In this document: positions 43,001 through 61,200 of the stretch, in pieces
Layout: each line of letters starts with the position of its first letter
Position numbering within the stretch: the first letter of the stretch is position 1
NCBI GenBank assembly: GCA_003223515.1
Contig: QHVI01000014.1
Span: 1 to 64,000 of the forward strand
Direction: 5' to 3'
Length of the DNA: 64,000 bases
DNA from: Candidatus Angelobacter sp. Gp1-AA117
Lineage (GTDB): Bacteria > Acidobacteriota > Terriglobia > Terriglobales > Acidobacteriaceae
The notes under the pieces: generated by a model
Seen by the model: only the letters and a program-made list of their open reading frames with translations
Told to the model about the DNA's origin: nothing
The model's database searches: none
Program-made: the position numbers and the translations under genes

Positions 43001-46000
43001 GATGTGGTGCAGCACCAGCATCAACGTACAATCGCAGTCAGCAGTCCTGAATAAACGTGCCCTGATAAGTCCAGGATGTTCCAGAGAAAAAATGCCGGTT
43101 GCTTCCTGGCGCAGCTCCCGGTTGCGTTGTTGTTCCATCTGAACGGCAGGAGTGCCACGCAAATCTGTTTCTTCGAGTGCAAAATCTGTGGTCTCATGTA
43201 CCTGTTGCAGTGGCTTTCCTTCGTTGAGGGTGAATGCTGTTCTCAGGATGGCGTGCCGCTGAATTACATGGCGCAAGCTCTGATCCAGAGCCCGCATGTC
43301 CAGTTCTCCCGGCAAACGGACGGCACCCGCGATGTTATAAACCGGCAGGCCCGAATGCATCTGCTCCAGAAACCATATCCGCTCCTGGGCAAATGAGAGT
43401 TCAATGGGGCCATTGCCGGCGTGCTTTACAGGTGGAAAAGGATGCGTTGCACTGACCGGCTCAAGGGTGCTCGCCATTCCGGCAACCGTGGCAGACTGCA
43501 AAAGCCGGGCTAGAGGAACTGTCCGATGAAGCCGGACTTCCAGCTTCGCCCGGAGTTGCATCATGAGCAGCGAGTGTCCGCCTAAAAGAAAGAAATCGTC
43601 TTCAGCACCAACCTTCTCCATGCCCAGAACTTCCTGCCAGATTTCGGCAACTTCTCGCTCCATAGTGCTGGCCGGCATTCTGCTCTGGGTGTGCGGCCGC
43701 TGCGGATGCGGCAGAGCCTTGCGGTCAACCTTTCCACTGGATGTTTTTGGCAACTCCGGCAGCAGAATAATATGGTTGGGCACCATGTATTCCGGCAGGC
43801 GATGCTGCAGGTATTCCCTTATTCTTTCAGGCGTGAGATCAAGATTTGCGCGAGGCGATACATAGGCGGCCAGATACTTACTGCCGCGGTCATCAACCAC
43901 AATGACCGCGCTTTCGCGTACCGCATCCCATTTGCCCAGTACCGCGGAGATTTCTCCCAATTCAATTCTGAATCCGCGTACTTTTACCTGCTGGTCGGCC
44001 CGGCCCAGATAAAGAAGCTGCCCATCCGGCCGCCAGCGGACCAGATCACCGGTGCGAAACATTCGTGCTCCGGGAGTTCTGCTGAAAGAATCGGGCAGAA
44101 AGCGTTCCGCGGTCCAGTCAGGGTGCTGCCAATATCCCCGCGCCAGCCCTGCTCCGGCAATGCAGAGTTCTCCGGTCACACCCATCGGGACCGTTTGTAA
44201 TTGCCGATCGATCACATAAAGCTGCGTGTTGGCAACAGGGCCTCCGATGGTTACCAGGCCTTGAGCATCAACGGTTGTCCACGATGAGTAAGTTGTCGTT
44301 TCAGTAGGGCCATACAGATTATTCACGCGTTTTACATGACCCGCTTCATAAATCTTCTGGACGAGCGCTTGCTGAAGGGCTTCCCCGGCGAGATTCACCG
44401 CAGAGACGCTTGCCGGCAAGCGGCGTTGCAGCAGTTGCTCCATGGCCGAAGGAACGGTGTTGATCAGTTTGACCTGTGGTTGCTCCTTTCGGCTGTCATA
44501 GCTATCGCACCATTGGAGAATGTTCTCGGCCAGTATCACCGTTCCGCCGCAACTCAAGGTCGCCCACAGCTCAAAGATGGAGAGGTCGAAACAAATTGAT
44601 GTTGTGGCCAGCACTCCGCTGAATTCTTCTTCGCTAAATGTGTTTCTCGCCCACTCGATAAATGAGGCAATGCTGCGATGGGTGAGCATCACTCCTTTGG
44701 GAGTTCCGGTAGAGCCCGAGGTATAAATCAGATATGCGAGCTGCTCACTGAATGATGGCTTGGGAATTATCGATGAATACTCTTTTCCAGTGCTGGCTAG
44801 TTCCTCCACATCAATCACCAGAGCGCTGGTCCCTTCCACGCGCTCCCTTAGTGTCTTTTCAGTGATCACGATCTTGGCGCGTGAGTCTTCCAGCATGAAG
44901 CGCACGCGTTGGTGCGGATACTGCGGATCAAGCGGCACATACGCGGCTCCGGCCTTCCATATGCCCAACATGGCAATCACCATCTCGGGCGAGCGATGGA
45001 TACAGACTCCTGCAAAATCTTCGCTGCCTATTCCATGATGGTGAAGGTGGCGGGCCATCTGATCGGCGCGGCGATCCAAGTCTCCATAGTTGAGGTGTAC
45101 ATCGCCCCACGCTACTGCTGTACGCTCCGGGTGCCGCTTTGCCCGGTGCTCAATCTGCTGGTGCAATAATCGCTGCCGGTCATACGGTAACTCGGTTTGG
45201 TTGAAATCCAACAGCAGTCTTGCCTGCTCTTTCTCAGGAATAATTGGAAGGTCCGTTACCCGGCATTGCAGATGTTCCACGATTCCCTGCAACAACCACT
45301 GGAAGCTCTGGTTCCACCGCTCGATCGTGGTAGCGTCGAAAAGGTCGGTGCTGTATTGCCATGTTCCAATGAATCCGTCCTGGCTCTCGCCCATGTTCAG
45401 CACCAGGTCGAATTCGGCGGTTTGCTCCTGCATGGCAAAAGCCTCAATCTTCAATCCGCCAATTTCCAGCCGGGCGCCGGATTGGTTCATGGCTAACGCA
45501 ACAGAGTCGGAAGATTGTCCTGCCCAGGCTTTCTGGAAGACAAACATCGTTTGAAAGATGGGAGAAGAATTGAAGCTGCGCGGAATGCCCAGCTTTTCTA
45601 CCATCAGCGGAAATGGATATTGGTCATGCGCAAAGGATGCGATGGATCTCTGTTTCAGACCGCTCAAAAATTCCGGGAAAGTTTTCGCCCCACTGAAGTC
45701 CGCAACCAACGGGAGCACATTCACAAAGTAACCAACCAGCCCGGAGAACTCGGCGCGTGATCTCCCCGAAGTCGGCACGCCTATGGCAAACCGCTCCTGT
45801 GCAGTAAGCCGGTGGAGCAGTGCCTGAAAAGCAGCCAGCAACACCGTGAATAATGTTGTCAGCTGCCCTGCCGCCATCTGCCTGAGTGGCACAGCGAATT
45901 TCGGCTTAATGACAAAGTCGAGGGAAGAGCCAGGAAAGCTGGAAACAGCAGGCCGGGAATGATCAGCAGGCAGATTCAAAGCTGCCAGTTCGCCGGAGAG

Positions 46001-48646
46001 TTCCTGCTGCCAGAAGCTCCAGAGGCGCTCGCCCTCTGGGCCGGAGATCAGTCGCTCCTGCCATGAGACAAAGTCTGCATAGCTATAGGTCAACAATGGA
46101 AGAGCGGCTGATGTTTTTCCCAGAGGAGAGCGGTAAAGCTGGCCCAGTTCACCCAGCAGCACCATCAGTGACCAGAAATCTGCGACAAGGTGATGCACCA
46201 CGAATTGCAGGACATGATCGGTTTCGGAACGGCTGTACAGGTGAACACGAAACAGCGGTCCATTCACCAGATCAAATGCCTTACGGCTTTCTTCTGCCAG
46301 GACTTCAGCAAAGCGGGCATCGCCCCATCCTGTTGCTTCTACCCGTTCAAAGCAAACTCCGGTTCCCTGCTGCACCTGCTGAAATGGTTCGCCCTCGACA
46401 GCAGCAAAGGTTGTGCGCAACGCTGGATGACGATCAAGAAGATGCTGAAATGCACCGCGGAGCAGATCAACTTCAACCCTGGATGTAATTCGTACCGCCC
46501 TGGCAATGTTATAGACGGTGCTTTCAGGAGCCATCTGCTGCAAAAACCAGAGTGCACGCTGGCCGTGTGACAGCGGGTATGTTTGCGGCGGCGCACTCTT
46601 CTCATAAAGATCTCTCTCCACAGCCGGGGGCGGCTGTGCCACACGTGTCTGCTCTGCCTGATGCAGAAGTCCCGCGAGAGTCATCCCCTCGAAGAGATCG
46701 GATATTTTGAGATCGAGACCGAAGTCGGTCTGAAGCCGGTGCACGAGTTCAATGGCGACAAGCGAATCAAGCCCATAAGCTGTGAGCGGCTGATGAAGAT
46801 CGATTTTGTCCGGAGCAATCCCCAATTTGGCGGCGATCTCAGAAAGCAACTGCGAGGGGAGAGCGCTTGGCGCAGTCGCTCGATTCAACGAAACATCACC
46901 AGGTTCTGAGGTTTCGTTTTCATGCCATTCCCCCAGCACATGCAGTTCGCCTTTGATGAATGCTTCCTTTGAGGCCCGCCGCTGAATCTTGCCGCTGGAG
47001 GTTTTGGGGATTGTGCCTGTTCGTACCAGGACAATGGCATAAGGCGAGAGTTCGTGGTGTTCTGCGATTGCCTGCCGGATCGAGGCGAAGATTTTCTCCC
47101 AATCAGTGCCTGCGCGATTGGCCGCCTCATGCACTACAACCAGCCGTTCCTCGCTACCGGCCTCAACGGAGAACGCGGCGCCAGAACCCGGTTGCAGGGC
47201 CGCATGGCTGCGTTCGACGGTAAGCTCGATATCCTGCGGGTAATGGTTCTGCCCGCGAATGATCAGCAGATCTTTAATGCGTCCGGTTACAAATAACTGC
47301 CCATCGCGCAAAAATCCTAGATCGCTAGTGCGCAGGAATGGGAGCCCGGTTCCGCCAATACGCGCATGAAATGTCTCCTGAGACTGCTGCGGATTATTCC
47401 AATAACCGGCGGCAATGCTCGGGCCGTTGACCCAGATTTCCCCAACCCGGTCAGGAGAGCAGCGTTGCAGTGAATCAGGATCAACAATTGCAATCTCCTG
47501 CCCGGCAAGGCTGCGCCCGCACCCCACAAGGATTTGCGTTCGTTCGCTGACGTGTGGCTGGCTTACACAATGGTTCTCGAGTTCCCGTTTATCGAATTCA
47601 CTTACGATTGCCGGAAGCCCTTTACTGCCGCCTGAAACCATTAACGTGGCTTCCGCAAGGCCGTAGCACGGATAAAAAGCTGTGGGGCGAAATCCGCACC
47701 GGGAGAAGGCAGCCGCAAAACGCTCCATAACATCGGCGCGCACCGGCTCTGCGCCGTTGAACGCGATGCTCCAACTGCTGAGATCCATTCCCTGCCGGTC
47801 AGCTTCCGGAATCCTGCGCGCGCACAAGTCATAAGCAAAGCTGGGGCCACCGCTGGCTGTGGCCCGATAGCGGGAAATTGCGCGAAGCCAGCGCCCCGGC
47901 TGTTCGAGGAAAGCTGCAGGCGCCATCAGTACCGCAGGCAAGCCACGATAGAGCGGCTGCAGAATGCCGGCCATGAATCCCATGTCATGAAACACGGGCA
48001 GCCACGAAACGTATGAATCATCGGGTGCAGCGCCTACGGCCTGATTCACCAGCTCAGCATTGTGCAGCAGGTTGCCATGCGTGAGCATCACGCCCTTAGG
48101 ATTTGCGGTTGAACCGGAGGTGTACTGGAGAAAGGCAACTGTATCCTGCGAAATCTGCGGACGGATGTACTTGAGATCTGCGGCAGGCGGCAACTCATCG
48201 GTAGCAATGATGCTGATATGTGCACCAGCACCCAATGCCGAAATGGCATTCCTGATCCTGGGCAGCAGGGCCGAAGTTGTGAGCACCAGCTTCGGTTGAG
48301 CATCGTGGAAAACAGTTTGCAGGCGAAGCAGGTTGCGATTGCGATGCGGCGGGTAGGCCGGGACCGCGATCACCGATGCGTATAAGCAGCCAAAAAACGC
48401 AGGGAAAAACGCAAGTCCCGGAGGATAGAGCAACAATGCCCGGTCGCCGGGTTTCGCCTCTTCCATGATCCGCGCAGCCACGTGCCGAGCCTGCTCATCG
48501 AGTTCTCTATAGGACGTTTCCTTTTCGACCGTTCCTTCATCCGCAAGGAAAGTGTAGGCAGACGTGCCCCGGTCATGCCGGGCTCTCAACTCCAGAAGAT
48601 CGACAAGCGAATGAATGGCGGCCTCTGCCTGCGGAATATTGAACAT
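37001..48646 (-). CDS. NRPS-A: FAAL-ACP-C-A-PCP-C-A-PCP-C-A-PCP lipopeptide synthetase
   Basis: 3881 residues. FAAL (1-585; YTSGSTANPKGVMLTH) activates a fatty acid as acyl-AMP and loads the ACP (GLDSL, about 626). C1 (about 685-1120) has HHLVADFWS, the form of condensation domains that accept acyl-ACP. A1 (about 1160-1640) reads DLFNNALTYK, the code I know for Ala. PCP1 Ser is about 1691. C2 has HHIIADGWS. A2 (about 2205-2707) reads DFWSVGMIHK, near the Thr code. PCP2 Ser is about 2757. C3 has HHIIADAWS. A3 (about 3277-3752) reads DAQDLGVVDK, the Gln code. PCP3 Ser is about 3805, then a basic tail (TRAGRRIAAARRG). No epimerase domain, so residues should be L. It starts the product: acyl-Ala-Thr-Gln, handed to the PKS. 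Two palindromic repeats are in-frame, in the ACP-C1 linker and in a loop of A2. Specificities are memory-based predictions. Confidence 0.95.
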   Translation of the reverse strand: MFNIPQAEAAIHSLVDLLELRARHDRGTSAYTFLADEGTVEKETSYRELDEQARHVAARIMEEAKPGDRALLLYPPGLAFFPAFFGCLYASVIAVPAYPPHRNRNLLRLQTVFHDAQPKLVLTTSALLPRIRNAISALGAGAHISIIATDELPPAADLKYIRPQISQDTVAFLQYTSGSTANPKGVMLTHGNLLHNAELVNQAVGAAPDDSYVSWLPVFHDMGFMAGILQPLYRGLPAVLMAPAAFLEQPGRWLRAISRYRATASGGPSFAYDLCARRIPEADRQGMDLSSWSIAFNGAEPVRADVMERFAAAFSRCGFRPTAFYPCYGLAEATLMVSGGSKGLPAIVSEFDKRELENHCVSQPHVSERTQILVGCGRSLAGQEIAIVDPDSLQRCSPDRVGEIWVNGPSIAAGYWNNPQQSQETFHARIGGTGLPFLRTSDLGFLRDGQLFVTGRIKDLLIIRGQNHYPQDIELTVERSHAALQPGSGAAFSVEAGSEERLVVVHEAANRAGTDWEKIFASIRQAIAEHHELSPYAIVLVRTGTIPKTSSGKIQRRASKEAFIKGELHVLGEWHENETSEPGDVSLNRATAPSALPSQLLSEIAAKLGIAPDKIDLHQPLTAYGLDSLVAIELVHRLQTDFGLDLKISDLFEGMTLAGLLHQAEQTRVAQPPPAVERDLYEKSAPPQTYPLSHGQRALWFLQQMAPESTVYNIARAVRITSRVEVDLLRGAFQHLLDRHPALRTTFAAVEGEPFQQVQQGTGVCFERVEATGWGDARFAEVLAEESRKAFDLVNGPLFRVHLYSRSETDHVLQFVVHHLVADFWSLMVLLGELGQLYRSPLGKTSAALPLLTYSYADFVSWQERLISGPEGERLWSFWQQELSGELAALNLPADHSRPAVSSFPGSSLDFVIKPKFAVPLRQMAAGQLTTLFTVLLAAFQALLHRLTAQERFAIGVPTSGRSRAEFSGLVGYFVNVLPLVADFSGAKTFPEFLSGLKQRSIASFAHDQYPFPLMVEKLGIPRSFNSSPIFQTMFVFQKAWAGQSSDSVALAMNQSGARLEIGGLKIEAFAMQEQTAEFDLVLNMGESQDGFIGTWQYSTDLFDATTIERWNQSFQWLLQGIVEHLQCRVTDLPIIPEKEQARLLLDFNQTELPYDRQRLLHQQIEHRAKRHPERTAVAWGDVHLNYGDLDRRADQMARHLHHHGIGSEDFAGVCIHRSPEMVIAMLGIWKAGAAYVPLDPQYPHQRVRFMLEDSRAKIVITEKTLRERVEGTSALVIDVEELASTGKEYSSIIPKPSFSEQLAYLIYTSGSTGTPKGVMLTHRSIASFIEWARNTFSEEEFSGVLATTSICFDLSIFELWATLSCGGTVILAENILQWCDSYDSRKEQPQVKLINTVPSAMEQLLQRRLPASVSAVNLAGEALQQALVQKIYEAGHVKRVNNLYGPTETTTYSSWTTVDAQGLVTIGGPVANTQLYVIDRQLQTVPMGVTGELCIAGAGLARGYWQHPDWTAERFLPDSFSRTPGARMFRTGDLVRWRPDGQLLYLGRADQQVKVRGFRIELGEISAVLGKWDAVRESAVIVVDDRGSKYLAAYVSPRANLDLTPERIREYLQHRLPEYMVPNHIILLPELPKTSSGKVDRKALPHPQRPHTQSRMPASTMEREVAEIWQEVLGMEKVGAEDDFFLLGGHSLLMMQLRAKLEVRLHRTVPLARLLQSATVAGMASTLEPVSATHPFPPVKHAGNGPIELSFAQERIWFLEQMHSGLPVYNIAGAVRLPGELDMRALDQSLRHVIQRHAILRTAFTLNEGKPLQQVHETTDFALEETDLRGTPAVQMEQQRNRELRQEATGIFSLEHPGLIRARLFRTADCDCTLMLVLHHIIADGWSIGVLLSEIENLYPAYRDGKPASLPPLEFQFTDYAVWQRDLLESGKLDEGLAYWKSQLSGAPPVLDLPVDTPRPLQPEYGGSLIRFALNKQLQRNVTDLSHREALTPYVLLLTAFQVLLSRYSGETDIVVGSPVADRLQVESQELVGLFANLLPLRTQIDPEGSFLSLLNQSKMTVAEAQTWQHIPFEKIVEQVEAHREFSRMPLVQVVFAWQVGLMGMVRLGEIVAQPQTVHTGTSKFDLTLTIEEDKDTGLFGWIEYSTEIFAAGTIRQIANRYVRFLEQIMSNPAQRIGDISLFSPEEKKQVLQQWNGMPLQPATGCVHAWFEQHVRQSPEATALRVEGRSLNYGTLNAMANQVAHALLARGIGQEMVVGICVERNKWMIMAILATLKAGAAYLPLNHEYPSERLAYMLADAGAAFILTEEATAEKLLNQAVPMMFVDRERREWEVQSTKDPAIRVYESNLAYIIYTSGSTGQPKGVMVQHGNLSGLLSTADTYFSFRPDDRWTMFHLYSFDFSVWEIWGALAYGGTLVIVSAEARRSPREFYKLLREEQISILSQVPSSFYQLLEETCGTAAPGCAEDSKLLNLRAIVFGGEALDVKRLDSWTQRKQEHAPLLVNMYGITETTIHVTYKQLEAADIEAGRSVIGSPLKGYRVYLLDERQMLVPPGIPGELYVGGIGVARGYLNRPDLTAERFVPNLFAHERGARLYRTGDRARYLADGTIEYLGRLDHQVKIRGYRIELGEIESTLKRHSAVLDCAVLVKDQRMFACIVPAEAGAVNYANLRAYMRSELPDYMVPAQFIALEHLPLTPNGKIDRKRLLQLESNETAESTSSVALSPTEELIAGIWSSLLGVPEFSPESNFFDLGGHSLLATQMVLQLRNVFGCEVPLRFIFEFPVLKDLAHHIRTLTGTPSAAGITSIHSRTGTGRLSLSSGQQRLWFLDQFTGSSSAYNIAGAARLTGELNVEALKQSFQAMILRHEILRTSFVEYQGRPQQVLQEVQFNIETTDLTGYLDRDVLGPKFMQELQRESTRPFVLSQPSLLRAVLFRLNDQEHVLLVSMHHIIADAWSIDLLIRELVQLYNFYTASEKYSLPELPFQYADYAAWEEERWTKGEFSAGLEYWKKQLADAPILELPADFPREATPTYQGRTLRATLDAELGRKMHHLARSENVTLFMLLLATYQVLLSQYTGEEDVVVGISIANRNVSGTEHLIGLFTNEVVLRTRLHGDPSFRELLARVRETTLSAYAHQDIPFGKLVEALRPDRDFSRNPFFQTTVLLHQDPLPQMKFGSLDLDPIELDIESTVFDASLEFTIGSKDEIHVALRHSTRFKAERMERLLQDVTVLLNRMVATPEAHLSQLRKSLRSEPAIALAGQRSWAGFVPVADSVPQLFEQQVAASPEQMAVSYEQTSLTFAELNEGANRVANYLLSLGIKNEDSVALCMERSVELLVAILGILKAGAAYVPLDRTYPPQRVRYILKETAAAAILTQNSLVSLFASAPCNVICLEDGGVTESSSLNPAVVIHPANLAYVIYTSGSTGEPKGVMVQHGSVLNLLEGLEQVLFCRLPSPVCVSMNAPVVFDASVQQWIRLLKGDTVCILPEEKRFDPEALISYMNENKIDVLDCTPSLLRLLLAESVDMYCKAMLVGGEAIDAPTWGQLRERRQTWFVNVYGPTECTVDVTACNVSDSTQPSIGLPLNNVDAYILNRNLHLVPQGEMGELYVAGAGLARGYYHRPDLTAEHFIPDDFSGIADSRLYRTGDLARVLPSGQFEFCGRSDDQVKIRGYRVELEEIISVLRRIEGVQDAVVIASDTRLLAFVAPGPGATLDTERLRDHLRQYVPEYMVPSSFIFMEALPLTVNGKTDRQALLRASEGQRVASSAHAPARNRMEETVSGIWQEVLGFQQFGIHDNFFDLGGHSLSMVQVRSRLREALQKEVPMVELFRNPTIALLAQYLAQGEARTPSLQIAQTRAGRRIAAARRGAEPVRSSPNE
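41247..41268. repeat. Palindromic repeat in the A2 domain of NRPS-A
   Basis: GCACAGCCG-N4-CGGCTGTGC, followed by CACACGT. 28 bases (41248-41275) are identical to 46619-46646. Read on the - strand as CGTAAPGCAED, a different frame from the other two coding copies. It sits in the variable loop before the FGGEAL motif. Confidence 0.85.
46619..46638. repeat. Palindromic repeat in the ACP-C1 linker of NRPS-A
   Basis: CACAGCCG-N4-CGGCTGTG, read on the - strand as RVAQPPPAVERD between the FAAL-associated ACP and C1. Confidence 0.85.
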
Positions 48647-48655
48647 GGAGAAAAT

Positions 48656-50314
48656 CTATGTGCGGGCCGTAGCGGACAACAGACCAGGCGTTCCGGCACT
48701 CACTTGTCCCGCTTCCAGGTGTACGATCCGGTCGGCTACCGCGTAATAACGATCATCATGACTGATAACAATCACGGTTTTGCCCTGAGCTTTTAACTCG
48801 GGAAGTATGCTGAAATAGAAAATCTCTTTGAACACCGGGTCCTGGTCGGCAGCCCATTCATCAAAAAACAGGATAGGACGGTTCTCCAGACAGCAAATCA
48901 GCAATGCAAGGCGCTTGCGTTGTCCCTGCGAAAGCTCCACGGTGGAGAATGCGCCGTTCTGAACACGCACCTTGTGCTCCAGGCGCAGCCGTGTGAGGTG
49001 CTTACGCGCCTCGTCCTCCAGATTTGCGCCTTCCTCAAATCCCAAAAGAGATTCGAACAGAAAGAAATCGGAAAATATGGCGGAAAAGAGCTGGCGATAA
49101 CTGTCGCAGTTCTTCTCTGTGATCAGTTCTCCGTTGCAGCGTATTTCGCCACTCTCAGAGGTATACAGGCCCACAAGCACCTTGGCCAGGGTGGTCTTGC
49201 CACTGCCATTGCCGCCGGTAATGAACAACAACTCGCCATTTTCAACAGTGAGATCCAGAGGACCGAGTGTGAATGAATCTGCGGAATCTTCATGGCGATA
49301 GGTATAGGTCACACCTTTGAGTTCCACGCGCACCGGGGCAATGCCGGATTCTCCAACTGCTGCGCTGCCGGTCTCTTCCACCACAGCAGATTGCGTCAGC
49401 TTCAGGCCGAGGTCTTCAATATTTTTGAGTGCGGTCCGGGCACGCGCCAGGGCGGGCGCGGCGTTCATGATCACCTGCAGTGGAGTCATGAGAAACAGCA
49501 GGGCCAGGATAAAGCCGGTAAGAACGCCCTCTCCGGCCGCCAGCGTACCGCGCAACCCGAAGACTGAGACGCCGATGACCACAAATACCAGGAGTTGTCC
49601 CCAGCTTGCCGCGATGGAGTAAATCCTGAATCCGGAGATGACTTCAGTACGGAAGAGACTGGCGGCGGCACTCAGAACTTTTGCCAGAAAATCCTCACGG
49701 CGGCGCTGGTGGAGCTTGAGTTCTTTCACCCCGTGAATGAGTCCCTGAAAATGCTTCTGCAGGTCGTTTTCACTGGCGCGGGCGCGCTTGAAATACGGTG
49801 TGGCCCGCAATACCGCAAGCTGGTATGTAGCAATCCCCAGAACAATGACGCCCAGCAAGGCCAGCAGAAGCTTCCATTTCAGCCAGCCCATGTAGACGAG
49901 ACAACTGGTCACAACCCCGATGTTGATGAACAGCACCGGCACGCTGGAGATCATTCCCGTGAGGATTGGAATATCATCGGTAAGCACCGAGAGAATGCGG
50001 TGGGTTCCAGCTTCCTCAATTTTCTGGAGTGGAACTCTTAAGACCTGGCGCGCCAGCTCTGTACGCAGCGCAAAGATCGCGTTCTGGCCGAGACGGGTCA
50101 ACAGCAACTCGGAGATTACGCGGGTCAGCGGAGCCAGCACACACAAAGCAATAAACACAAACAGCAGAGCGCGCGGATCAGCGTGCCGGCGGAAAAGCGC
50201 GGCATTCACGATTGCCAGCATTCCGGCATTGGTAATTCCGCTCAGGCAGCCGAATATCACTGTGAAGATGAATACACGGCGAGAGCGGGCAAAAAGAAAA
50301 CGGATCAATTCCAT
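48656..50314 (-). CDS. Cyclic peptide/lipopeptide ABC exporter (SyrD/PvdE type)
   Basis: A 552-residue half transporter: six-helix membrane domain (1-320), then an ATPase. Walker A is ITGGNGSGKTTLAKV (about 385), the signature is ELSQGQRKRLALL (about 472, the SQGQ form of this family), and Walker B is PILFFDEWAADQDP (about 495), which deviates from DEPT as in SyrD and PvdE. Such proteins move lipopeptides or siderophore precursors across the inner membrane. It begins four bases after the radical SAM stop and ends nine bases before NRPS-A, so it is part of the operon and very likely exports the product or its precursor. Confidence 0.92.
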   Translation of the reverse strand: MELIRFLFARSRRVFIFTVIFGCLSGITNAGMLAIVNAALFRRHADPRALLFVFIALCVLAPLTRVISELLLTRLGQNAIFALRTELARQVLRVPLQKIEEAGTHRILSVLTDDIPILTGMISSVPVLFINIGVVTSCLVYMGWLKWKLLLALLGVIVLGIATYQLAVLRATPYFKRARASENDLQKHFQGLIHGVKELKLHQRRREDFLAKVLSAAASLFRTEVISGFRIYSIAASWGQLLVFVVIGVSVFGLRGTLAAGEGVLTGFILALLFLMTPLQVIMNAAPALARARTALKNIEDLGLKLTQSAVVEETGSAAVGESGIAPVRVELKGVTYTYRHEDSADSFTLGPLDLTVENGELLFITGGNGSGKTTLAKVLVGLYTSESGEIRCNGELITEKNCDSYRQLFSAIFSDFFLFESLLGFEEGANLEDEARKHLTRLRLEHKVRVQNGAFSTVELSQGQRKRLALLICCLENRPILFFDEWAADQDPVFKEIFYFSILPELKAQGKTVIVISHDDRYYAVADRIVHLEAGQVSAGTPGLLSATART

Positions 50315-50318
50315 CTGA

Positions 50319-52226
50319 TCACCATTGAACAGCCGGGGCGCCGGGCTGCTGGGCCGCTACAAGCTGAGGTATTGAGATGGCAGCGCGGCTTCCGTGCTCA
50401 TCCTCGAGCACAAGGCTGAAGATGCGGTCATCTTCCTGGAACAGAAGGCCGCTCTCCTGCAGTTTCGCAATCTTCTCCGGAACGGTATTGTCAGGAAAGA
50501 CCCGCAGCAACTCCTCCATACCGGTGGGCTTAACCAGATATTTCAGGATTGCTTCACCCAATTCTCCAACATGGTGTTCAACCACTGATCCCGAGCGGGA
50601 GTCGTAGATGATTTGCGGGTCTTCTTTGACACGCAGGCGTGGCGGCGCCTGTCCCGGATCGTTCCAGCGCTTCTGCCACTGCGTGACTTTGGCGCGAACT
50701 TTGCCAATCCATTTCGCCATGGTCAGAAAATAGTCAGCGCGCAAGTTCTGGTCCGCAAAATAGTAGGCGAACCGCTTCAGGTCTGCCAAATCAAAGGGAT
50801 AAATCAGCGAGTAGAAGTCCAGCGGCAACAGGTCGAGCCCGTATTTTTCAGCCTGGTCATGATAAGGGCTGAAACGGTCAAAGCGCACCGGATACGCTCC
50901 GGAAGGCGGATACAGATGGAACAGCCGCGAAATTGAATCTACATAGATACGATATGACTCATCACCTTCTCCGGGAAAACCCACCAGCAGGTTCCAGTGA
51001 GGCTGTACGTCATAGAGAGCGCACAGCTTCAGCAGCTTGAGATTCTGGAATACGGTGGTCCCTTTCTTCATGAGCTTCAGCGTGGGAGTAGCGAGGGCTT
51101 CAATGCCCGGCTGAATCTGCTTTACTCCTGCCCTGGAGAGGACGGCCATGTCCTGCTCGCTCAAATCGGCCTTGACTTCATAGAAGATCTCCATGTCTGC
51201 GGGAGTATTCAGGAACGGCAGCACCTGCTGGATATAACTTTTGGGCAGAATATTATCTACAGCCATGATGCGTGAAACTTTGCCGGAATATTGGAAGAGT
51301 GAATTAAATAATGAGATCGCCAGTTCCGGCTTGGCGGCGCGATATCCCATGGATACGCCATTCAAGCCGCAAAACGTGCAGTGCGCTCGCTCGCCCCACC
51401 AGCAGCCGCGCGATGTTTCTAACGTCAGCACAGGTTTGACTTCATGGTTGGGAAAATACTCTTCGAGCCTGCGCATGAAAGGCGCATAGTTCAATTCCAC
51501 GGGAGTATCAATGTCCAGATCTTCGCCTATGGTTGCCGGGCCGGACTGCGGGCGCGGCGCTTGCTTGCCAAACACACCGCGAATCTCAACAGATTTCGGC
51601 GATTCTCCTGCCAGGCAGCGGCTCACAAACTCAGGAAAGCTCTTGAGTGCCGGGCCGGAAAACACATAATCGATCTCCCTGCATCTCTCGGCAATCACCG
51701 CGCCCATTGGAAATTCGCAATTGGCGCCCCCCATCACTGTAATCAGAGAAGGATTGCGCTGCTTGAGTTTGCGGGCGAGCGCAAAATTGGCGGTGTTCTG
51801 CATGAACATGGAGGTAAAGCCCGCGAGGTTGGTTTTCTCCAGATCGTATGTTGCGATCAACTCATCGAGCAGAGCATCGAGGCCCGGCCTTTTTTGCCGG
51901 ATCAGTTTTTTGAGCAGTTCCATCTCCGGCGTCTGCGCCGGAAAATAGCGCTGGAGATATTTCTCCGTGTTATCGGGCAGCTCCGGAAAAGCTGACTGCC
52001 GGAAAAGCCAGTCTCCCAGGCCGGTGTTGAGGGAATCCATGGAGGTGGCCAGAAAACCATAGAAGTCAGTACCCAGATATTTGGCAATATCATGGCTCAG
52101 GTACAGCACCTCGACGGAAACCTGGTCTTCAAATCTCGACTCAACCACTGACTTGATCTGGGTGAGCGCAATCGAAGGCAGAGCCAGATTGGAAAACGGC
52201 ATATTGACGAGAGAAATCCTGAACAT
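50319..52226 (-). CDS. B12-binding radical SAM protein of the RiPP-maturase (ocin_1) type
   Basis: 635 residues. The N-terminal ~230 residues resemble a cobalamin-binding domain preceded by a family-specific region (FTSMFMQNTANFALARKLK, then VMGGANCEFPMGAVIAERC). The radical SAM core has the unusual cluster motif C-x7-C-x2-C in ETSRGCWWGERAHCTFCGLN (about 275), then GIEALATPTLKLMKKGTT and NLLVGFPGEGDESY. The CWWGE...CTFCGLNG string is the hallmark of bacteriocin/RiPP maturation radical SAM protein 1. The last ~150 residues are helical. It has its own possible promoter and leader upstream and is translated just before the exporter. In this operon it could C-methylate or otherwise modify the lipopeptide or an intermediate, or serve an unrecognised peptide substrate; no precursor peptide is visible next to it. 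Confidence 0.88.
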   Translation of the reverse strand: MFRISLVNMPFSNLALPSIALTQIKSVVESRFEDQVSVEVLYLSHDIAKYLGTDFYGFLATSMDSLNTGLGDWLFRQSAFPELPDNTEKYLQRYFPAQTPEMELLKKLIRQKRPGLDALLDELIATYDLEKTNLAGFTSMFMQNTANFALARKLKQRNPSLITVMGGANCEFPMGAVIAERCREIDYVFSGPALKSFPEFVSRCLAGESPKSVEIRGVFGKQAPRPQSGPATIGEDLDIDTPVELNYAPFMRRLEEYFPNHEVKPVLTLETSRGCWWGERAHCTFCGLNGVSMGYRAAKPELAISLFNSLFQYSGKVSRIMAVDNILPKSYIQQVLPFLNTPADMEIFYEVKADLSEQDMAVLSRAGVKQIQPGIEALATPTLKLMKKGTTVFQNLKLLKLCALYDVQPHWNLLVGFPGEGDESYRIYVDSISRLFHLYPPSGAYPVRFDRFSPYHDQAEKYGLDLLPLDFYSLIYPFDLADLKRFAYYFADQNLRADYFLTMAKWIGKVRAKVTQWQKRWNDPGQAPPRLRVKEDPQIIYDSRSGSVVEHHVGELGEAILKYLVKPTGMEELLRVFPDNTVPEKIAKLQESGLLFQEDDRIFSLVLEDEHGSRAAISIPQLVAAQQPGAPAVQW

Positions 52227-52455: not shown

Positions 52456-54882
52456 TTAATCCTGCCTCAATGCCGACACCGGATCGATCCGGGTGGCACG
52501 CCTGGCGGGAATGTAGCAGGCCAAAGTCGAGACTGCCAGAATCACCGCCGCCATGCCCGTTAAAGTAACCGGGTCATAGCTGGAGACGTGGAACAAAAAC
52601 GTCGATACATATCTGGTGAGCGCCAATGCGCCTAACATGCCGGCCACCAGGCCTATTAAAGTAAGCTTTAGCGCATATCCCAGAATCAGTTGGAATACCT
52701 GGCTGCGTGAGGCTCCAATTGCGACACGCACTCCTATCTCACGGGTGCGCTGGGCCACCGAGTAAGCCATCACGCTGAAAATTCCGATAGCAGCCAGAAC
52801 CAGCGCAATAGCGGCAAAGATTGTGAGCAACAGAGTACGGAAGCGCGGCTGCGCAATCGAGTCCGCAATCGTGTCTTCCATGCTGCGGATTTTGACTACA
52901 GGCTGGTTAGGGTCGATATTGTGGATTACGGTGCGCAGCGAATGCGTCAGGATGTTCGGGTCACCGGCTGTGCGTATTGCCAATGACATGGAGAGAACCG
53001 GACGGATTTTATCGGACTGCCTGTATGGAATGTAAAGTTCGGTTGGCGCTTCGCTGGCTAATGCCTGTTTCACGTCACCCACCACACCCACAACTTCCAT
53101 CCAGGGATTCACGTCATTCGGCAACCCGCCGATCTGAAGGTAATGTCCAAGTGGCGACTCATTGGGGAAAAAGGTGTGGGCCAGCGTGGAGTTGATAATG
53201 ACCACTGTAGGTGCGGTTTCACGATCAGACGGCTGAAAGAGACGCCCCTGGACCAGAGGAATCTGGAGCGTTGAGAAATAACCCGTACTGATCGCGCGAT
53301 AATTCGTAATCGAGTATTCATTCTTCTTGGGCGGCCGGTCCTTGATATTGAAGTAGAGGGCCATGCCCGCGCCGCTTACCGGAAGGAAAGAAGCGCCGGA
53401 AGCGCTGCGCACGCCGGGCAGGGCGGCAGCTTGTTGCAATACCTGCTCCCAGAAATCGAGTCTCTCTACGGGAGTACGGCGGGAGTTGGTCGAAAGCGGA
53501 ATGTCGGCCACGAGAATGTGGTCGGGCGAGAAACCCGGCGAGACATTCGCCAGCCGGTCAAAGCTGCGGATCAGCAATCCTGCCCCAACCAGCAGAAGCA
53601 CAGCTACTGCAACTTCAGCCACGACCAGAATTGCCCGCAAAGCAGAGATGCCACGGGTAACGCCCCCGCGCTCTGTTTCATTCAGCGCCTCACGCACATC
53701 CATTCGCCAGATGTGCCGCACCGGCGCAAGGCCAAACAGGATGCCGGAGAGCATAGCGATGGCGATGGTGAAGATGAGCACCCTGACATCGATGGAAACA
53801 CGATTGCCGAATGGAAGAGTAGAACCAGCCAGCCGCAGCAACGTCGGTATTGCAACCCAGGCCATCACCAGTCCAAGCGTGGCACTCAGCACGGAGAGCA
53901 GAACATTCTCTGTCAGAAGCTGCCGGACAATGCGCGAGCGGCTCGCTCCTATGGCGCTGCGCACCGCGATCTCACGCTGCCGTCCGGTAGAGCGGGCGAG
54001 CAACAGGTTGGCAACATTGGTGCAGGCAATGAGAAGCACAAAGCCCACTGCGCGCATCAAGACCAGCAATGCCGGGCGAACATTTTCGACCATCTGATCC
54101 TGAATGGGATTTACGAATGCCCCGGTTCCGGTGTTATAAATCGGATATTCTTTTTCGAGCCTTTGCGCGATCCCGGTCATCTCGGTGCGCGCCTGCTCCA
54201 GGGTCACACCGGGTTTCAAACGTGCGACTGGAACGATACCGGGATGCCAGGCACGATCATTGGGCAGAGTCTTGGCCCAGGGTTCGAGCGGCAGGACAAC
54301 ATCCGGGACCTGAAGCAGCACCTGATAATTCGCCGGCAACACTCCAATGATGGTGTAACGTTTGTCATCCAGTGTGAGCGATTGACTGATAACGTCCGGC
54401 GAACCGTTGAAACGCCGTTTCCATAAGCCCTGGCTGATCAGCGCTACACCAGCGCCCGCCGCGCTATCTTCCTGCTGGGTGAAGGCTCGGCCCATCGGAA
54501 TATCGATTCCCAGCGTGCTGAATAAATTGGCGGTAGCCATCTGCGTGGGAAGCCGCTCTGGTTCGCCCGAACCGCTCAGGGTCACAACCGTGTTGCGCAC
54601 CGCACCTACTGATTCAAAGGAATGGCTTTGATCGCGCCAGTCAATGTAGTTCAGATAAGAGACGGTATAGCGGGGAAATTGTCTGGTTTGCTCCATGAGC
54701 AAGACCACCCGGCCGGAATCTTTATAGGGAAGAGGCCGGAGCAAGACCCCATCCACGATGCTGAAGATGGCGCTGGTCGCCCCGATACCCAGGGCCAGGG
54801 TAAGCACCATGATGGCCATGAAGGCAGGATCACTCTTGAACCTGCGGATTCCATATCGAATGTCTTGCAAAAGGGTCTGCAT
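52456..54882 (-). CDS. ADOP-family duplicated orphan permease (MacB/FtsX-like)
   Basis: 808 residues with eight helices in two FtsX-type halves. The N-terminal helix (MVLTLALGIGATSAIFSIVD) is followed by a large periplasmic MacB-type domain (about 55-270), then three helices with SIGASRSRIVRQLL-like GASR loops, a second periplasmic domain and three more helices (QRTREIGVRVAIGASRSQVF). This is the acidobacterial duplicated orphan permease family, which lacks its own ATPase gene. The operon position, between MbtH and the radical SAM enzyme, suggests a part in export or envelope handling of the product, but no ATPase of the MacB kind is nearby. The 88 bases between it and MbtH hold nothing I recognise. 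Confidence 0.88.
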   Translation of the reverse strand: MQTLLQDIRYGIRRFKSDPAFMAIMVLTLALGIGATSAIFSIVDGVLLRPLPYKDSGRVVLLMEQTRQFPRYTVSYLNYIDWRDQSHSFESVGAVRNTVVTLSGSGEPERLPTQMATANLFSTLGIDIPMGRAFTQQEDSAAGAGVALISQGLWKRRFNGSPDVISQSLTLDDKRYTIIGVLPANYQVLLQVPDVVLPLEPWAKTLPNDRAWHPGIVPVARLKPGVTLEQARTEMTGIAQRLEKEYPIYNTGTGAFVNPIQDQMVENVRPALLVLMRAVGFVLLIACTNVANLLLARSTGRQREIAVRSAIGASRSRIVRQLLTENVLLSVLSATLGLVMAWVAIPTLLRLAGSTLPFGNRVSIDVRVLIFTIAIAMLSGILFGLAPVRHIWRMDVREALNETERGGVTRGISALRAILVVAEVAVAVLLLVGAGLLIRSFDRLANVSPGFSPDHILVADIPLSTNSRRTPVERLDFWEQVLQQAAALPGVRSASGASFLPVSGAGMALYFNIKDRPPKKNEYSITNYRAISTGYFSTLQIPLVQGRLFQPSDRETAPTVVIINSTLAHTFFPNESPLGHYLQIGGLPNDVNPWMEVVGVVGDVKQALASEAPTELYIPYRQSDKIRPVLSMSLAIRTAGDPNILTHSLRTVIHNIDPNQPVVKIRSMEDTIADSIAQPRFRTLLLTIFAAIALVLAAIGIFSVMAYSVAQRTREIGVRVAIGASRSQVFQLILGYALKLTLIGLVAGMLGALALTRYVSTFLFHVSSYDPVTLTGMAAVILAVSTLACYIPARRATRIDPVSALRQD

Positions 54883-54970: not shown

Positions 54971-55213
54971 TTAACTTGCCGGCCTGGAAGCTCTCTCCTG
55001 TGCGGCTTTTTCCATGGCATCCTTCAGGCTTTTCGGGCGCATGTCGGTCCAGTTTCTCTCAATCCAATCGAGGCATTCACGATGTTTTCCCCGGGGGCCG
55101 GTAGCTCGCCAGCCTGCGGGTATGTCACGGAATGCCGGCCACAATGAATATTGCTCTTCATCATTGACCAGCACCAGGTATTCAGCATTTTCATCTTCAA
55201 ATGGGTTCGTCAT
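54971..55213 (-). CDS. mbtH: MbtH-like NRPS accessory protein
   Basis: An 80-residue MbtH protein. Motifs are NPFEDENAEYLVLVNDEEQY, SLWPAFRDIPAGW and the tail CLDWIERNWTDMRP. MbtH proteins bind A domains and support their folding or activity, so it probably assists one or several A domains of NRPS-A and NRPS-B. The start overlaps the NRPS-B stop (ATGA). The C-terminal extension (SLKDAMEKAAQERASRPAS) is slightly longer than usual. Confidence 0.96.
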   Translation of the reverse strand: MTNPFEDENAEYLVLVNDEEQYSLWPAFRDIPAGWRATGPRGKHRECLDWIERNWTDMRPKSLKDAMEKAAQERASRPAS

Positions 55214-58200
55214 AATCTTCTCTCAGAGGATGGTTCATTATAGAAGGCCTGCACAGCGGCTGCGGGCTTTGAAGGTCTTTCCGCCAGGTAGTTCCGCAAC
55301 ACCTTGCCAACCATCGCGATTTGGTCTGGATCGGTAATGCGGGGATGGCGGCAATGGAGTTCGTGTATCTTGATCTCTCCGGTTACGTGATCGCGCCACT
55401 GCGCCGGTGAGAAGAAATCAGGCCGGTCTTGGGTGGCGGCAAAGAACAGGATGTTGCCCCGGAACTTGCCTGGCCGGAAGGCCAGGCGCAGCGTAGTTGC
55501 ATGTTTGAGGAAGTGCAGCATCCTCTCGATCTGCTCAACCTCCAGCAGGCCGATCACATGGCCCACCTGCCGGGCCACTTCAACTACCGTCGGGATGCTG
55601 ACGCGCCTGCCTTTCAGGTGCTCCGTATCGAACTGCACCAACTCAAAGAGTTCGGTGATGTCAGGTTCCAGAGCGATTTCACCCGGCACGGCAAGATAGG
55701 AATCCATGATGGCAAGGCACCCAAGTTCCTCGCCCTCGCGTTGCAGTTGGCAGGCAATTGCATGGGCTACCAGGCCTCCCATGGACATACCAACCATATA
55801 ATAAGGACCGTGCGGCTGAATCTTACGAATGGTTCTGGCGTAGTTCCCGGCCATTTCTTCAATGTTCGCTGGAAACGCGCATTTCGTATCGATTCCCACC
55901 GCCTGGATACCATAGATTGGCCGGTTGGGTCCGAGTTCGCGAACCAGTCCAGCATATCCCCAACTCAAACCGGACCCGCCATGCAGACAGAAGAGCGGTG
56001 GTAGATTTCCTTGAGCATTCAGAGTAAGGACCTGATCCAGAGCGCTCTTGCCGGAAACACCTGAGTGGATGCGCAGACTCAGCTCAGCTACCGTGGGGGC
56101 TTCGAATAAAGCTCTCAGGCTCAGGGAAACGCCCAGGGTGTCACGAATGCGGCTGACAAGCCGGGGAGCGACCAGCGAGTGTCCTCCCAGAGCGAAGAAA
56201 TTGTCGTCAACACCAACCTGCTCGACCCCCAGTACCTCCGCAAATAATTCACAGAGTTTCTGTTCCTGCGGATTTCCGGGAGCGCGATACTGTCCCCGCT
56301 GGCGTTCGGGCGCGGGCAAAGCTCGCCGGTCCAACTTTCCATTGATGGTAATGGGTATTTTTTCAAGCAGGACCAAAGCCGCAGGCACCATGTAGTCGGG
56401 GAGTACACGGCCCATCTCTTGGCGCGCATCCTCAAGATCCATCGTCAAATCTTGCGCTGGTTCAATGTAAGCGACAAGCTGCGGGCCCACGCCGCCATCT
56501 TCACGCACCACCACGGCGCATTGTTTCACGCCAGCATGCCGGCCCAGTACTGCTTCAATCTCGCCCAGTTCGATCCGGTGTCCCCTGATCTTGACCTGGT
56601 GATCGATGCGGCCGAGATATTCAAGTTGTCCGTTTTTACGATAACGAACCAGGTCACCGGAACGGTACAGGCGCTCTCCCGGTTCTTTACTGAATGGATG
56701 CGGCACGAACTGCTGCGCCGATAACTCCGGCCGGTTGAGATAGCCGCGCGCCAGACCTGCCCCGCCCACATACAGCTCCCCTGCAATTCCAATGCCCGTG
56801 GGCTGCATGAATTCATCAAGGATGTACGTCTGCAAATCAGGAATACGTTCTCCGATCAGGCTGGCGCTTTCATTCGCGGTTCCGGCAGTCAACCGTTGAT
56901 AGGTCACATGCACCGTGGTCTCGGTGATGCCGTACATGTTGACCATCTGCGGGCGCGCATCTCCATGACCGGCAAACCATGAACGCAGGCTGCTCATCTC
57001 CAGCGCTTCCCCGCCAAAGATCACCAGCCGCAGGCTTAAATCGCCGCCACTCAAAGCGGATGACTGCTCAAATTCGCTCAATTGCCGGAAGGCCGAGGGC
57101 GTCTGGTTGAGCACAGTGACTTTTTCCGTCTTCAGCAGCCCATAAAAAGATTCAGGAGAGCGTGTTACCCAGTAGGGCACAATCACCAACCGGCCGCCAT
57201 AGAGCAGAGCGCCCCAGATTTCCCACACAGAGAAATCAAAGGCATAAGAGTGGAACAGAGTCCAGACATCTGCCGCGCTGAAGTTGAACCAGTGCCGCGT
57301 GGCGGAAAGCAGGCGCGCAACGTTCTCGTGTGTGACCATTACACCTTTGGGCTTGCCCGTGGAACCCGAGGTGTAAATCACATAGGCTGTATTCGCAGGA
57401 CTTGCATGGGACTGCGGGTTCGTTCCATCTTCGGTTCCGATCCGTTCCCAGTCACGGTCGAGAAACACCAGCTTCGCCTGCTCCCGCGGTAATCTCCCTT
57501 CCATTTCTGCAGAGGTGAGAATCACCTCTGCCCCGGCATCCTGAATGATGTAAGCCAGGCGCTCAGCCGGAGCCTGCGGATCGAGCGGCAGGTAAGCGCC
57601 ACCGGCTTTCAGCACTCCCAGCACCGCTAAGACAGTTTCCATGGAGCGTTCCAGGCAGATGCCTACACGCCGCTCCGGCCCGGCTTGCTGCTTCAGCAGA
57701 TAATGTGCCAACTGGTTGGCCCTGCGATTCAGTTCGGCATACGTCCATGATTGATGCTCATAGCTCAGCGCGATGGCCTGCGCGGTACGTTCCGCCTGTT
57801 GCGCGAACATGAGATGCAGCAGATCGTCTGCTGCGAACCCTCTGCGTTCATTCCATTCCGTGATGACCTGATCGCGTTCCGCCGGATCGAGAAGATCGAT
57901 GGTTCCAACCGCCTGATCCGGCGCGTTGGCGATCTGCTCCAGAAGGCGAGCATACTGGTTGGCCATGCGCGCCATACGCCATTGATCAAACAGGTCACGG
58001 TTGTACATCCAATAGAACTCTGTCTGTTGCTCGCTCTCAAAAGCATGTAGCTCCACATCAAACCGCACCCACTGATCAGGAATCGCCACCGGCTCAACTT
58101 CAATTCCCTTCAGCCGCTGCACGCGCAGAGGCGCATGATGTAACCCGAACAACACCTGGAAGATTGGCGTGGTGCTCAGGCTTCGCTGCGCTGCCACCTC

Positions 58201-61200
58201 TTCCACCAGCCGTTCGAATGGAAGGTCCTGGTGCTGGAAGGCCTCAAGTGCGGTGTCCCGGGTACTGCGCAGCAATTTCTGAAAGCTTTGCAGTGGATTC
58301 ACCCGTACACGCATCACCAGCGTATTCACCAGGAAGCCAATCATCTGCTCCAGTTGTGGGCCGCTGCGGTTGGCAACCGGAGAGCCAATGACGATGTCTG
58401 TCTCTCCGCTGTGGCGTTGCAGCAGCAGAGCGAAAGCCGCAAGCAACGTCATGTAGAGCGTGGCGTCATTGCTTTTACTTACATGCTTCACCAGCTTCAT
58501 CCTGGCAGAAGGCACAATCAAACTGTAAACATCGGCCACAAAGGTCTGAAAGGCCGGACGGGGCCGGTCACGCGGCAGGTCCAGTTGTTCAGGAATACCT
58601 GCCAGTTGCTTCCGCCAGTAATCGAGTTCCTGCGCCACAGCGCGGTCGTCGAGCCAGGAGCGCTGCCACAGCGCAAAATCCGCGTATTGCAGTTGTAAGG
58701 CCTGAAGAGGATTCTCTTCCCCGGCACGGAAGGCATCGTAAAGCACCATGAATTCCTGTTTGAAGACGTTTTGCGACCACGCGTCAGAGATAATGTGGTG
58801 CAAAGTACGCAGGAGGATATGGTCCTGCTCGCCCAGCTTCAACAGCTTCAATCGCAACAATGGGCCATGCGCCAGATCAAAGGCCTCAGTTGCTTCCTGC
58901 CGCACTGCTGAAGTCACCCGCTCCCATTTTTCTGCTTCTGCCAGACTGCTGAAATGTTTGTAAGGAACTTCAATAGGAAGATGCGGAACAATGATCTGTC
59001 CCGGCTCGCCCTCGATCTCCGCAAAGTGAGTTCGCAGGACTTCATGGCGCTCGACAATGGCATTGATGGCGCGCTCCAGAGCTCGGCGATCCAGTTCTCC
59101 GCGCAGCCGCAGCGCTTCTGTCAGATTGTATTCAGAAGTGGTCTCCTGCAGTTGATGGATGAACCACAATCTGCGCTGCGCGTGCGAGAGAGGCAGACGC
59201 TCAGGACGCGGCTGGCGTACCAAGGCAGGCCGCGTTTCAGTGCTCCGCACATGACTGAGGAACTGCGCCAGACGCGCCACCGTGGAATGCTCGAAGATCG
59301 CGCGAACCGGTATTTCAGCCCCCATTCTCTCCTGAATGCGGCTGACCAGCAGCATGGCCAAAAGCGAATGGCCGCCTAAGGTAAAGAAATTGTCGTCAAC
59401 TCCTGCCTGTTCGATCTCCAATACTTCTGCAAAGAGCTCACACAGAATCGTTTCCTGGGCAGTTCGAGGAGACCTGCGGCTCTCATTCTGCACTCCAGGC
59501 TGAGGCAAGGCATGCCGATTGAGCTTGCCGCTGGCGGTCAGCGGCAACTGGTCGAGCACCACAAAAAGCGATGGCAGCATGTGCTCCGGCAGCCGATTTT
59601 GCAGCCTCTGGCGAAGGGCGGCTGGATCCAAAACGGATTCCGCAACGGGTGAGAGATAGGCGACGATCTGCCGTCCTAGTTTCCCATCTTCGCGCAGCGC
59701 CACTGCACATTGCTTTATTTCCGGCAGACTGCGCAGTGCCGCTTCAATTTCGCCCAACTCTATACGATAACCGCGCACTTTTACCTGCTGGTCAGAACGC
59801 CCCAGGTATTCGAGATCGCCATTGTTGCGCCGGCGCACCAGGTCCCCGGTGCGATACATGCGGGCTCCGGGTTCGGTCGAATAAGGATCAGCAACAAAGC
59901 GCTCTGCCGTAAGGCTGGGCCGGTTCAGATATCCACGCGCCAGGCCCGCCCCAGTCACATACAATTCACCGGCCACGCCGGTTGGAACCGGCTGCAGACG
60001 GCTGTCGAGGACATAGGCGCGTGTATTCCAGATGGGCTGCCCGATCGATGCCTCGGCGCCCGTCTCACTGTCAGAATGCCAGGCCGTGGCGTACACAGTA
60101 GTCTCTGTTGGGCCGTAGAAATCGGCAATTCGGGCCTGCGGCAAAACTGCGCGGGTGTCCTCCACCAACTTTGCCGGCAAAGCCTCACCGGCAAACACTA
60201 CCGTGGTCACCTCCTGCAACATCACACCACGCTCCAGCAGCATGGAGAAGACCGAAGGCACCGCGCTGATGAGGCTGGCCTTCCAGGTTTTGCGCGGAGA
60301 CTCCACCAGGGCCAGCAGGTCGCGCACCATCTCAATAGAGCCGCCTGCCAATAGAGGCGCAAATAGTTCAAATACCGAAACATCGAAATTCAGCGAGGTT
60401 GTGAACAGCACGCGGGAAAGGCGCTGCGGGCCGAGAGCAGAGATGGCCCAATGCAGCAGCGCTGATATATTGCTGTGGCAAACGGCCACGCCTTTAGGAT
60501 TCCCGGTCGAACCAGAGGTATAGATGATGTAGGCCGTGTTGGATGGCAACAGGGCTGCCCGGCGGTCTGTATTGGCAGGATTGTGATCAGAAGCAGCCTG
60601 CAGGTCCGGCGCATCGCAGGTAAGCACATGAATGGTATCCGGAAGACGCGCAGCCAGGCCCTCTGTGCTGAGCACCAGCAGAGGCTTGGAATCGGCCAGC
60701 ATCTGGGAAAGCCGCGCTTCCGGATATTCCGGATCGAGCGGCAGATAGCATCCACCGGCCTTGAATACGCCCAGCAGCGCTACCGGCATCTCAAGAGAAC
60801 GCTCCATGAATATGCCAACCGGAACTTCAGGCCCCACACCCAGGCTGATAAGATGATGGGCCATCCTGTTGGCTCGTGCGTTCAGTTCGCCATAGGTCAA
60901 TGAACCGGTTCCGGAAATCGCGGCGACTGCGTTAGGTGTGCGTTTCGCCTGTTCTTCAAAGAGTTCATGCACACATTTATGGCGTGGCCATTCATGGCGG
61001 GACTGATTCTGTTCATGGAGCAACCGGTTTCTCTCCCGCTCCGGCGTTATTTCCAGTTGCCATATTGGAATTGAAGGCCTGGCTGTGACATCTTCCAGCA
61101 GGTGCGCGAAATGGGCGGCCATCTGCTCCATGCGCCAGCGGTCAAACAGATCGCGGTTGTAGATCCAGTAAAAGGTGATCTGCCCCTGGTGCTCCCACGC

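Follow-up and report, generated by a model that had tools for sequence, protein, structure and literature searches.

A radical SAM enzyme of a RiPP-maturation family as a probable C-methyltransferase in nonribosomal lipopeptide biosynthesis

Why does a radical SAM enzyme from a family named for RiPP maturation lie inside an NRPS/PKS locus, and on what does it act? The gene in question occupies positions 50319-52226 (minus strand) of the window, by which we mean the whole stretch of 64,000 nucleotides analysed from Candidatus Angelobacter sp. Gp1-AA117. A sequence-only reading of this DNA had offered two answers: the enzyme may modify an NRPS product, for example by C-methylation at an unactivated carbon, or it may serve an unseen ribosomal peptide made by the same locus. 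In this study we examined the enzyme, its locus and its relatives, and the results favour the first answer and give no support to the second.

The enzyme and its locus

The gene encodes, from an ATG start, a radical SAM protein of 635 amino acids that is, by its sequence, a member of TIGR03975 (rSAM_ocin_1). Indeed, it matches this profile with 487.9 bits (cut-off 281.85, E 4.2e-146) over its full length, from profile position 1 to 606 of 606 and from protein residue 4 to 607, and the next-best family, HpnJ, scores far below at 36 bits. The presumed [4Fe-4S] binding motif, a C-x7-C-x2-C in an RGCWWG context (RGCWWGERAHCTFCGLNG, positions 51369-51404, minus strand), consists of C275, C283 and C286. 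These cysteines are invariant across the 22 rows of alignment A1, and the Cx7Cx2C pattern was found in 68 of 69 family rows. The coordinates and the cysteine motif given by the sequence-only reading were therefore right, as judged from the open reading frame and alignment A1.

The Pfam Radical_SAM profile also matches above its cut-off. The B12-binding profile PF02310 gives a weak, sub-threshold match to residues 89-200 (19.8 bits, E 7.1e-4, cut-off 32.1), and several B12 radical SAM families match weakly, all below their own cut-offs. The closest solved structures by profile, 5ul2 (49.1 bits) and 7kdx (46.4 bits), are those of OxsB and TokK, the nearest solved cobalamin radical SAM enzymes, both remote. 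A single-sequence structure prediction of the enzyme, with a mean pLDDT of 34.5, was too poor to place the signature residues discussed below. A C-terminal RRE (PqqD-like) domain had been suspected by eye and was rejected, since nine C-terminal pieces gave no PqqD match.

Five TIGR03975 members score above cut-off in the window's genome, the other four being encoded on contig C153 (L012:7075-17203 and L011:7025-8935). Three of these four genes adjoin a gene for a protein of 766 aa, in which PyrE-like and AMMECR1-like matches stay below cut-off, and two proteins that matched nothing in Pfam or NCBIfam at the limits applied are also encoded beside them. No NRPS genes were found in the stretches read around these C153 loci, and close counterparts of all four genes are present in genome G170.

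The enzyme gene is part of an NRPS/PKS locus of ~61 kb that lies on a single strand, as a minus-strand run from 92793 to 31327 on contig C190 (the window's contig, 150,890 bases, which was read beyond the window end). In the order of the run, it begins with an NRPS of 3175 aa with three C-A-PCP modules (C190:83266-92793), a 1049-aa protein with a PKS ketosynthase-like start recognised by eye, and an NRPS of 4769 aa (C190:65687-79996) comprising four A domains and an extra C-type domain, read as epimerisation from its place. An NRPS of 3489 aa follows, with three C-A-PCP modules and a C-terminal, thioesterase-like GxSMGG motif (window positions 55210-64000, on to C190:65679). Next come an MbtH-like protein, a partner of NRPSs (54971-55213; PF03621, 98.5 bits), and an ADOP family duplicated permease (52456-54882; TIGR03434, 953.6 bits), a type of protein that points to Acidobacteriota. 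The enzyme gene lies downstream of this permease and is followed after 4 bp by the gene of an ABC transporter for cyclic peptide export (48656-50314; TIGR01194, 487.3 bits, cut-off 286.2), which we take to be of the SyrD/PvdE type. The run ends with an NRPS of 3881 aa (37001-48646), in which a FAAL-like AMP-ligase, recognised by eye, and an ACP precede three C-A-PCP modules, and with a type I PKS module containing KS, AT, KR, DH and ACP according to domain profiles (31327-37008). All these genes are on the minus strand.

The profiles and the gene order thus bear out that the enzyme sits between an ADOP permease and a TIGR01194 exporter inside an NRPS/PKS operon, as had been read from the letters, and the MbtH gene, absent from that reading, is a new addition to the locus; NCBIfam gave no match for it. 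Gaps across the whole run are -8 to 9 bp, except for three of 88, 123 and 229 bp: the exporter and the following NRPS gene are separated by 9 bp, and the ADOP gene and the enzyme gene by 229 bp. A promoter and terminator scan returned counts near the shuffled expectation. A further NRPS gene group lies on the same contig (C190:104056-117182, minus strand).

Thirteen A domains, leaving out the FAAL-like one, were coded and compared with 25 reference codes, each substrate call naming the nearest of these. In module order, the 3175-aa NRPS yielded one code without assignment, Val (8/9) and Ala; the 4769-aa NRPS yielded Ala, one without assignment, Gly (8/9) and another without assignment; the 3489-aa NRPS yielded Val (9/9), one without assignment and Thr (9/9); and the 3881-aa protein yielded Ala (9/9), Thr (6/9) and Gln (9/9). 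Within C190:65687-79996, two A domains carry an unusual FYGSSE motif and their substrate code was not readable. From this domain content and these codes, we infer a lipopeptide product that carries one or two polyketide extensions and in which Val and Ala residues are plausible methylation targets.

Nearest relatives and their genomic setting

Relatives were sought with the window protein in its genus (9 genomes), in samples of its phylum (396), class (399) and order (397), and in the families of G454 (2 genomes) and G808 (160). A further search, run after the pattern described below had been seen, used the relative from G646 in the class of that genome (148 genomes). These samples overlap, and genome counts are not summed; in the phylum, class and order samples three candidates were scored per genome, so that copy numbers are lower bounds. 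The first family search found at least 7 of 300 genomes above cut-off, a lower bound because only four candidates were scored per genome, and the window's own gene was not in its listing. The relatives closest to the window protein came from G106 (57% identity), G368 (56%), G454 (three copies, 47-50%), G646 (48%) and G808 (four copies, 43-45%), and the other matches listed in the genus and phylum searches are at most 38% identical to it. A scan of viral contigs with alignment A1 found no relative, and a scan of genome contigs with a single protein gave one partial match, L026, which was left unused.

For the tree, we left out open reading frames below 400 aa, L148, which duplicates L100 in truncated form, L142 (G327:C81), which runs off the end of its contig, and duplicate rows of L115, L130 and L025. 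Three rows were trimmed, L105_6323, a long open reading frame, to its last 650 residues, and L169 and L177 to their last 660. In the first tree the nearest relatives of the enzyme form one clade of 11 of the 69 rows with support 100/100. This clade was kept in all 200 bootstrap trees looked at, the bootstrap being not quite settled, and none of 500 label shuffles did as well. With an outgroup of six distant radical SAM proteins, whose branches are long, the clade stays together at 100 and is nested within the family. The search with the G646 protein supplied a second set of seven more members from five further genomes, 46-55% identical to that protein, as well as two members at 36-40% identity, L177 and L178, which fall outside the clade. 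In the enlarged tree the clade holds 18 of 78 rows from 11 genomes (SH-aLRT 100), one change setting it against the 60 others.

A first context scan used profiles of C and A domains made from the NRPSs of the window's own genome. It found these domains for 9 of the 69 tree rows, in 6 loci, and none for 58 rows in 50 loci; the remaining 2 rows (G454 C692 and C74) lie on contigs of ~3 kb, where the context is uninformative. With the second set included, NRPS or PKS assembly-line genes are present in 12 of the 13 clade loci whose flanks are informative. Of the 52 other loci, 0 have such genes within the stretches read, whose median is ~8 kb a side, so that distant NRPS genes would escape there. 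No match to C, A, KS, AT, MbtH, SbnA or SbnB at E 1e-10 was found in these 52 loci (the 50 plus L177 and L178), and weak exporter matches in 4 of them, at 23-30% identity, are such as any ABC exporter would give. As the nearest NRPS domains are more than 10 kb off at two clade loci, G368 (nearest A domain 13 kb away) and G1191:C19, the contrast may be partly due to flank length.

The arrangements within the clade differ from genome to genome. In G646 the order is NRPS, TIGR01194 exporter (485.4 bits), NRPS, enzyme. In G454:C834 the enzyme gene lies among NRPS genes and overlaps the next by 4 bp, with a PKS-like start after it, recognised by eye. The G106 locus runs from an NRPS end through two genes recognised by eye, one for an ADOP-like permease and one for an MbtH-like protein without an NCBIfam match, to the enzyme, and a PCP-only protein (PF00550) is encoded 48 bp downstream. 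Near a TIGR03975 gene on G106:C33, L071:11360-12793 encodes a radical SAM protein of the SPASM type whose N-terminus is a PqqD domain.

In G368 the enzyme is flanked by SbnA (430.6 bits) on one side and SbnB (412.5 bits) on the other, and an NRPS run upstream of it carries codes close to those for Val, Asn, Glu and Dab, plus one without assignment. An NRPS cluster on G368:C24 encodes two tandem proteins of 870 and 891 aa (L098:9091-14335), the first matching Lant_dehydr_N with 136.5 bits and the second having a start that looks alike, with a DUF6875 protein near. In G808, four tandem enzyme copies directly follow two large NRPS genes (L154:8199-16055, G808:C1), the first of which has several domains read as epimerisation and one exact Val code; Val codes are thus found at the window locus, in G368 and in G808.

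Among the second set, NRPS domains are encoded beside the enzyme gene at L169, L171 and L175 (G1147), the last with an exporter 44% identical to that of the window, and L176 (G1187) has PKS KS and AT domains, SbnA and SbnB near the enzyme. A KS lies ~6 kb away at L172, with NRPS genes farther along the contig, and also ~6 kb away at L173 (G1193:C33), with no NRPS domain before the contig end. The sole exception among the 13 clade loci is L174 (G1148), where no NRPS or PKS gene was found within ~29 kb on either side, which rules out a perfect NRPS link within the clade.

The NRPS-linked members of this sample thus form one clade in both trees, and since this clade recurs with NRPS genes in other genomes, a co-occurrence peculiar to the window's genome is excluded.

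Proposed reaction and its alternatives

We propose, with a probability that we put at roughly 0.72, that the enzyme is a radical SAM C-methyltransferase dependent on methylcobalamin and that its substrate is the nonribosomal lipopeptide of the locus, still bound to the carrier protein or already released. Methyl addition to hard-to-reach carbons is probable because nearly all nearest relatives that could be checked lie in NRPS/PKS clusters. The [4Fe-4S] cluster would cleave SAM, the resulting 5'-deoxyadenosyl radical would take a hydrogen from an unactivated carbon, methylcobalamin would donate a methyl group to that carbon, and the neighbouring exporter would ship the product.

Radical SAM C-methylation of a nonribosomal peptide is already in print. 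According to PMC12858407 (Nat Chem Biol 2025), DscE belongs to the NRPS cluster for discodermin in 'Ca. Entotheonella monilis' (MIBiG BGC0003182; four NRPS proteins, 14 modules); it was reconstituted in vitro and converts discodermin D to B by methylation of V5 (+14 Da), with small amounts of discodermin A formed from B. The authors also refer to a homolog of the rSAM C-methyltransferase in another NRPS system, the product of which is unknown. The earlier remark that NRPS tailoring by such an enzyme would be unusual is tempered by this 2025 result. Like the predicted window enzyme, DscE is a C-methyltransferase of the cobalamin radical SAM type with its gene in an NRPS cluster; it comes from another organism and acts on another product, and we liken the two by setting and reaction, not by sequence. 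Most likely the window enzyme resembles DscE in action. The two modules with Val codes, one exact and one off at 1 of 9 sites, hint that the likeliest target might be valine, to be converted to tert-leucine as by DscE at V5 of discodermin.

In titles and abstracts of the literature, mostly non-subscription, we found no TIGR03975-type enzyme described with NRPS beyond PMC12858407, and passages of PMC8692599 describe none either; TIGR03975 is named once each in PMC12350317 and PMC9426513.

The enzyme could instead act earlier and methylate either a free amino acid or a building block bound to its carrier, with assembly of the peptide following. SbnA and SbnB, whose genes serve the making of the building block 2,3-diaminopropionate, accompany the enzyme in G368 and G1187 as described above, and cystobactamid CysS is a cobalamin-dependent radical SAM methylase of an NRPS pathway, according to titles and abstracts (PMC12846815, PMC7966384). 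The same description is predicted to hold for the window enzyme, the comparison being by description and not by sequence. The reported target of CysS is a methoxy group on an aminobenzoate unit rather than a side chain of a peptide. The Val codes at 9/9 and 8/9 argue weakly against the loading of pre-methylated tert-leucine, and DscE acts on the released peptide (PMC12858407). We consider methylation before assembly unlikely.

Maturation of a ribosomal peptide with an unrecognised precursor, by an enzyme placed in an NRPS locus by chance, would agree with the family name and with the four paralogues on C153 that stand without NRPS genes in the stretches read. It would also agree with relatives on plasmids: 57 plasmid records carry a match, and 5 of the 12 members read have an annotated precursor near, namely a Nif11 precursor in Sinorhizobium and Acaryochloris, an NHLP-type precursor in Ruegeria, a CefA precursor in Methylomagnum and a pheganomycin-type precursor in Streptomyces globosus. 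Of the other members read, 3 of 12 are annotated without a precursor and 4 of 12 lie in stretches that bear no annotation.

Against this, the leader models run on the whole window genome, the Nif11 profiles PF07862 (best E 0.15) and TIGR03798 (best E 0.81), gave nothing above cut-off. Furthermore, a tblastn comparison of five sister loci with 29 open reading frames of 20-300 aa, mainly intergenic, from C190:30.9-93.5 kb showed none to be convincingly conserved, the best (E 0.007) being an opposite-strand frame matching one sister locus. Gaps of 13 bp in G454 and 17 bp in G646 separate the enzyme gene from the gene before it, and therefore there is no room for a precursor upstream of it there. 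Moreover, membership of the clade goes together with NRPS/PKS genes. By the Nif11 profiles and the comparison of intergenic frames, the alternative of an unseen ribosomal precursor at this locus is thus without support, and we regard this explanation as very improbable.

Residue signature and meaning for the family

The clade is also set apart by three residues. The window protein has P192-A193-L194 (51645-51653, minus strand), where other members have GE-x-D/E, and A298 (51333-51335, minus strand), where members outside the clade have K or R and the 17 remaining rows of the clade have M or L. In the first tree, site 192 is P in 11/11 clade rows and E or D in 58/58 others, site 194 is L in 11/11 and D or E in 58/58 others, and site 298 is M in 10/11, with A in the window protein, and K or R in 58/58 others. 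The second-set clade rows read P-L-M (4), P-L-L (2) and A-L-M (1) at sites 192-194-298, and both second-set rows outside the clade read E-D-K. Two acidic residues and one basic residue are thus absent in 18/18 clade rows and kept in the 60 other rows, this charged trio being a conserved feature of our family sample, not a stated TIGR03975 criterion.

The acidic motif lies at the end of, or just after, the weak B12-binding match (residues 89-200). At this motif 4 of 6 outgroup rows have GEAE, and TokK keeps GEGE where the clade has GP-x-L. TsrM, itself a very weak match, has GPGE, so that P at the first site is not unique to the clade. We found no paper on the GEGE motif in the literature searched. 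Absence of the trio may reflect altered handling of the cofactor, such as cobalamin, or of the substrate, or other chemistry. That the clade has abandoned methyl transfer for another radical reaction on the NRPS product, such as epimerisation or cross-linking, would fit the joint lack of counterparts to E192, D194 and K298 in 18/18 clade rows, but the cluster motif and the A1-invariant residues remain and DscE, compared by setting and not at these sites, methylates in the same setting (PMC12858407), which leaves this explanation barely credible.

C-methylation of the nonribosomal product thus remains the preferred reading, and beyond the published case of DscE, our work brings the recurrent NRPS/PKS-linked clade, its residue signature and the four-copy tandem array of G808. 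The window enzyme resembles the RiPP-maturation enzymes of TIGR03975 in its full-length match and its cysteine motif, but differs from them in that no ribosomal precursor was found, in its NRPS setting and in the absence of the charged trio. Because the clade recurs with NRPS/PKS genes and has its own residue signature, 'RiPP maturation', as the NCBI model is named, would be misleading for its members, and the label should not be transferred to this enzyme.

Tentatively, and at somewhat less than even odds, RiPP-type radical methylases left ribosomal substrates once for dedicated nonribosomal tailoring and lost the charged trio. Since the four tandem copies of G808 stand after two NRPS genes with many epimerisation-type domains, the product made there might, as part of the same tentative view, be a nonribosomal equivalent of the polytheonamides, which are C-methylated at many places and alternate between D and L residues.

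If the proposed function is right, radical C-methylation of peptides, best known from RiPPs, would be recurrent in the nonribosomal biosynthesis of one bacterial phylum, and the three sites would provide a sequence signature for finding such clusters. It would also give a pointer to the genetic source of tert-leucine residues in natural products such as plocabulin and hemiasterlin, both described as of unknown biosynthetic origin in PMC12858407.
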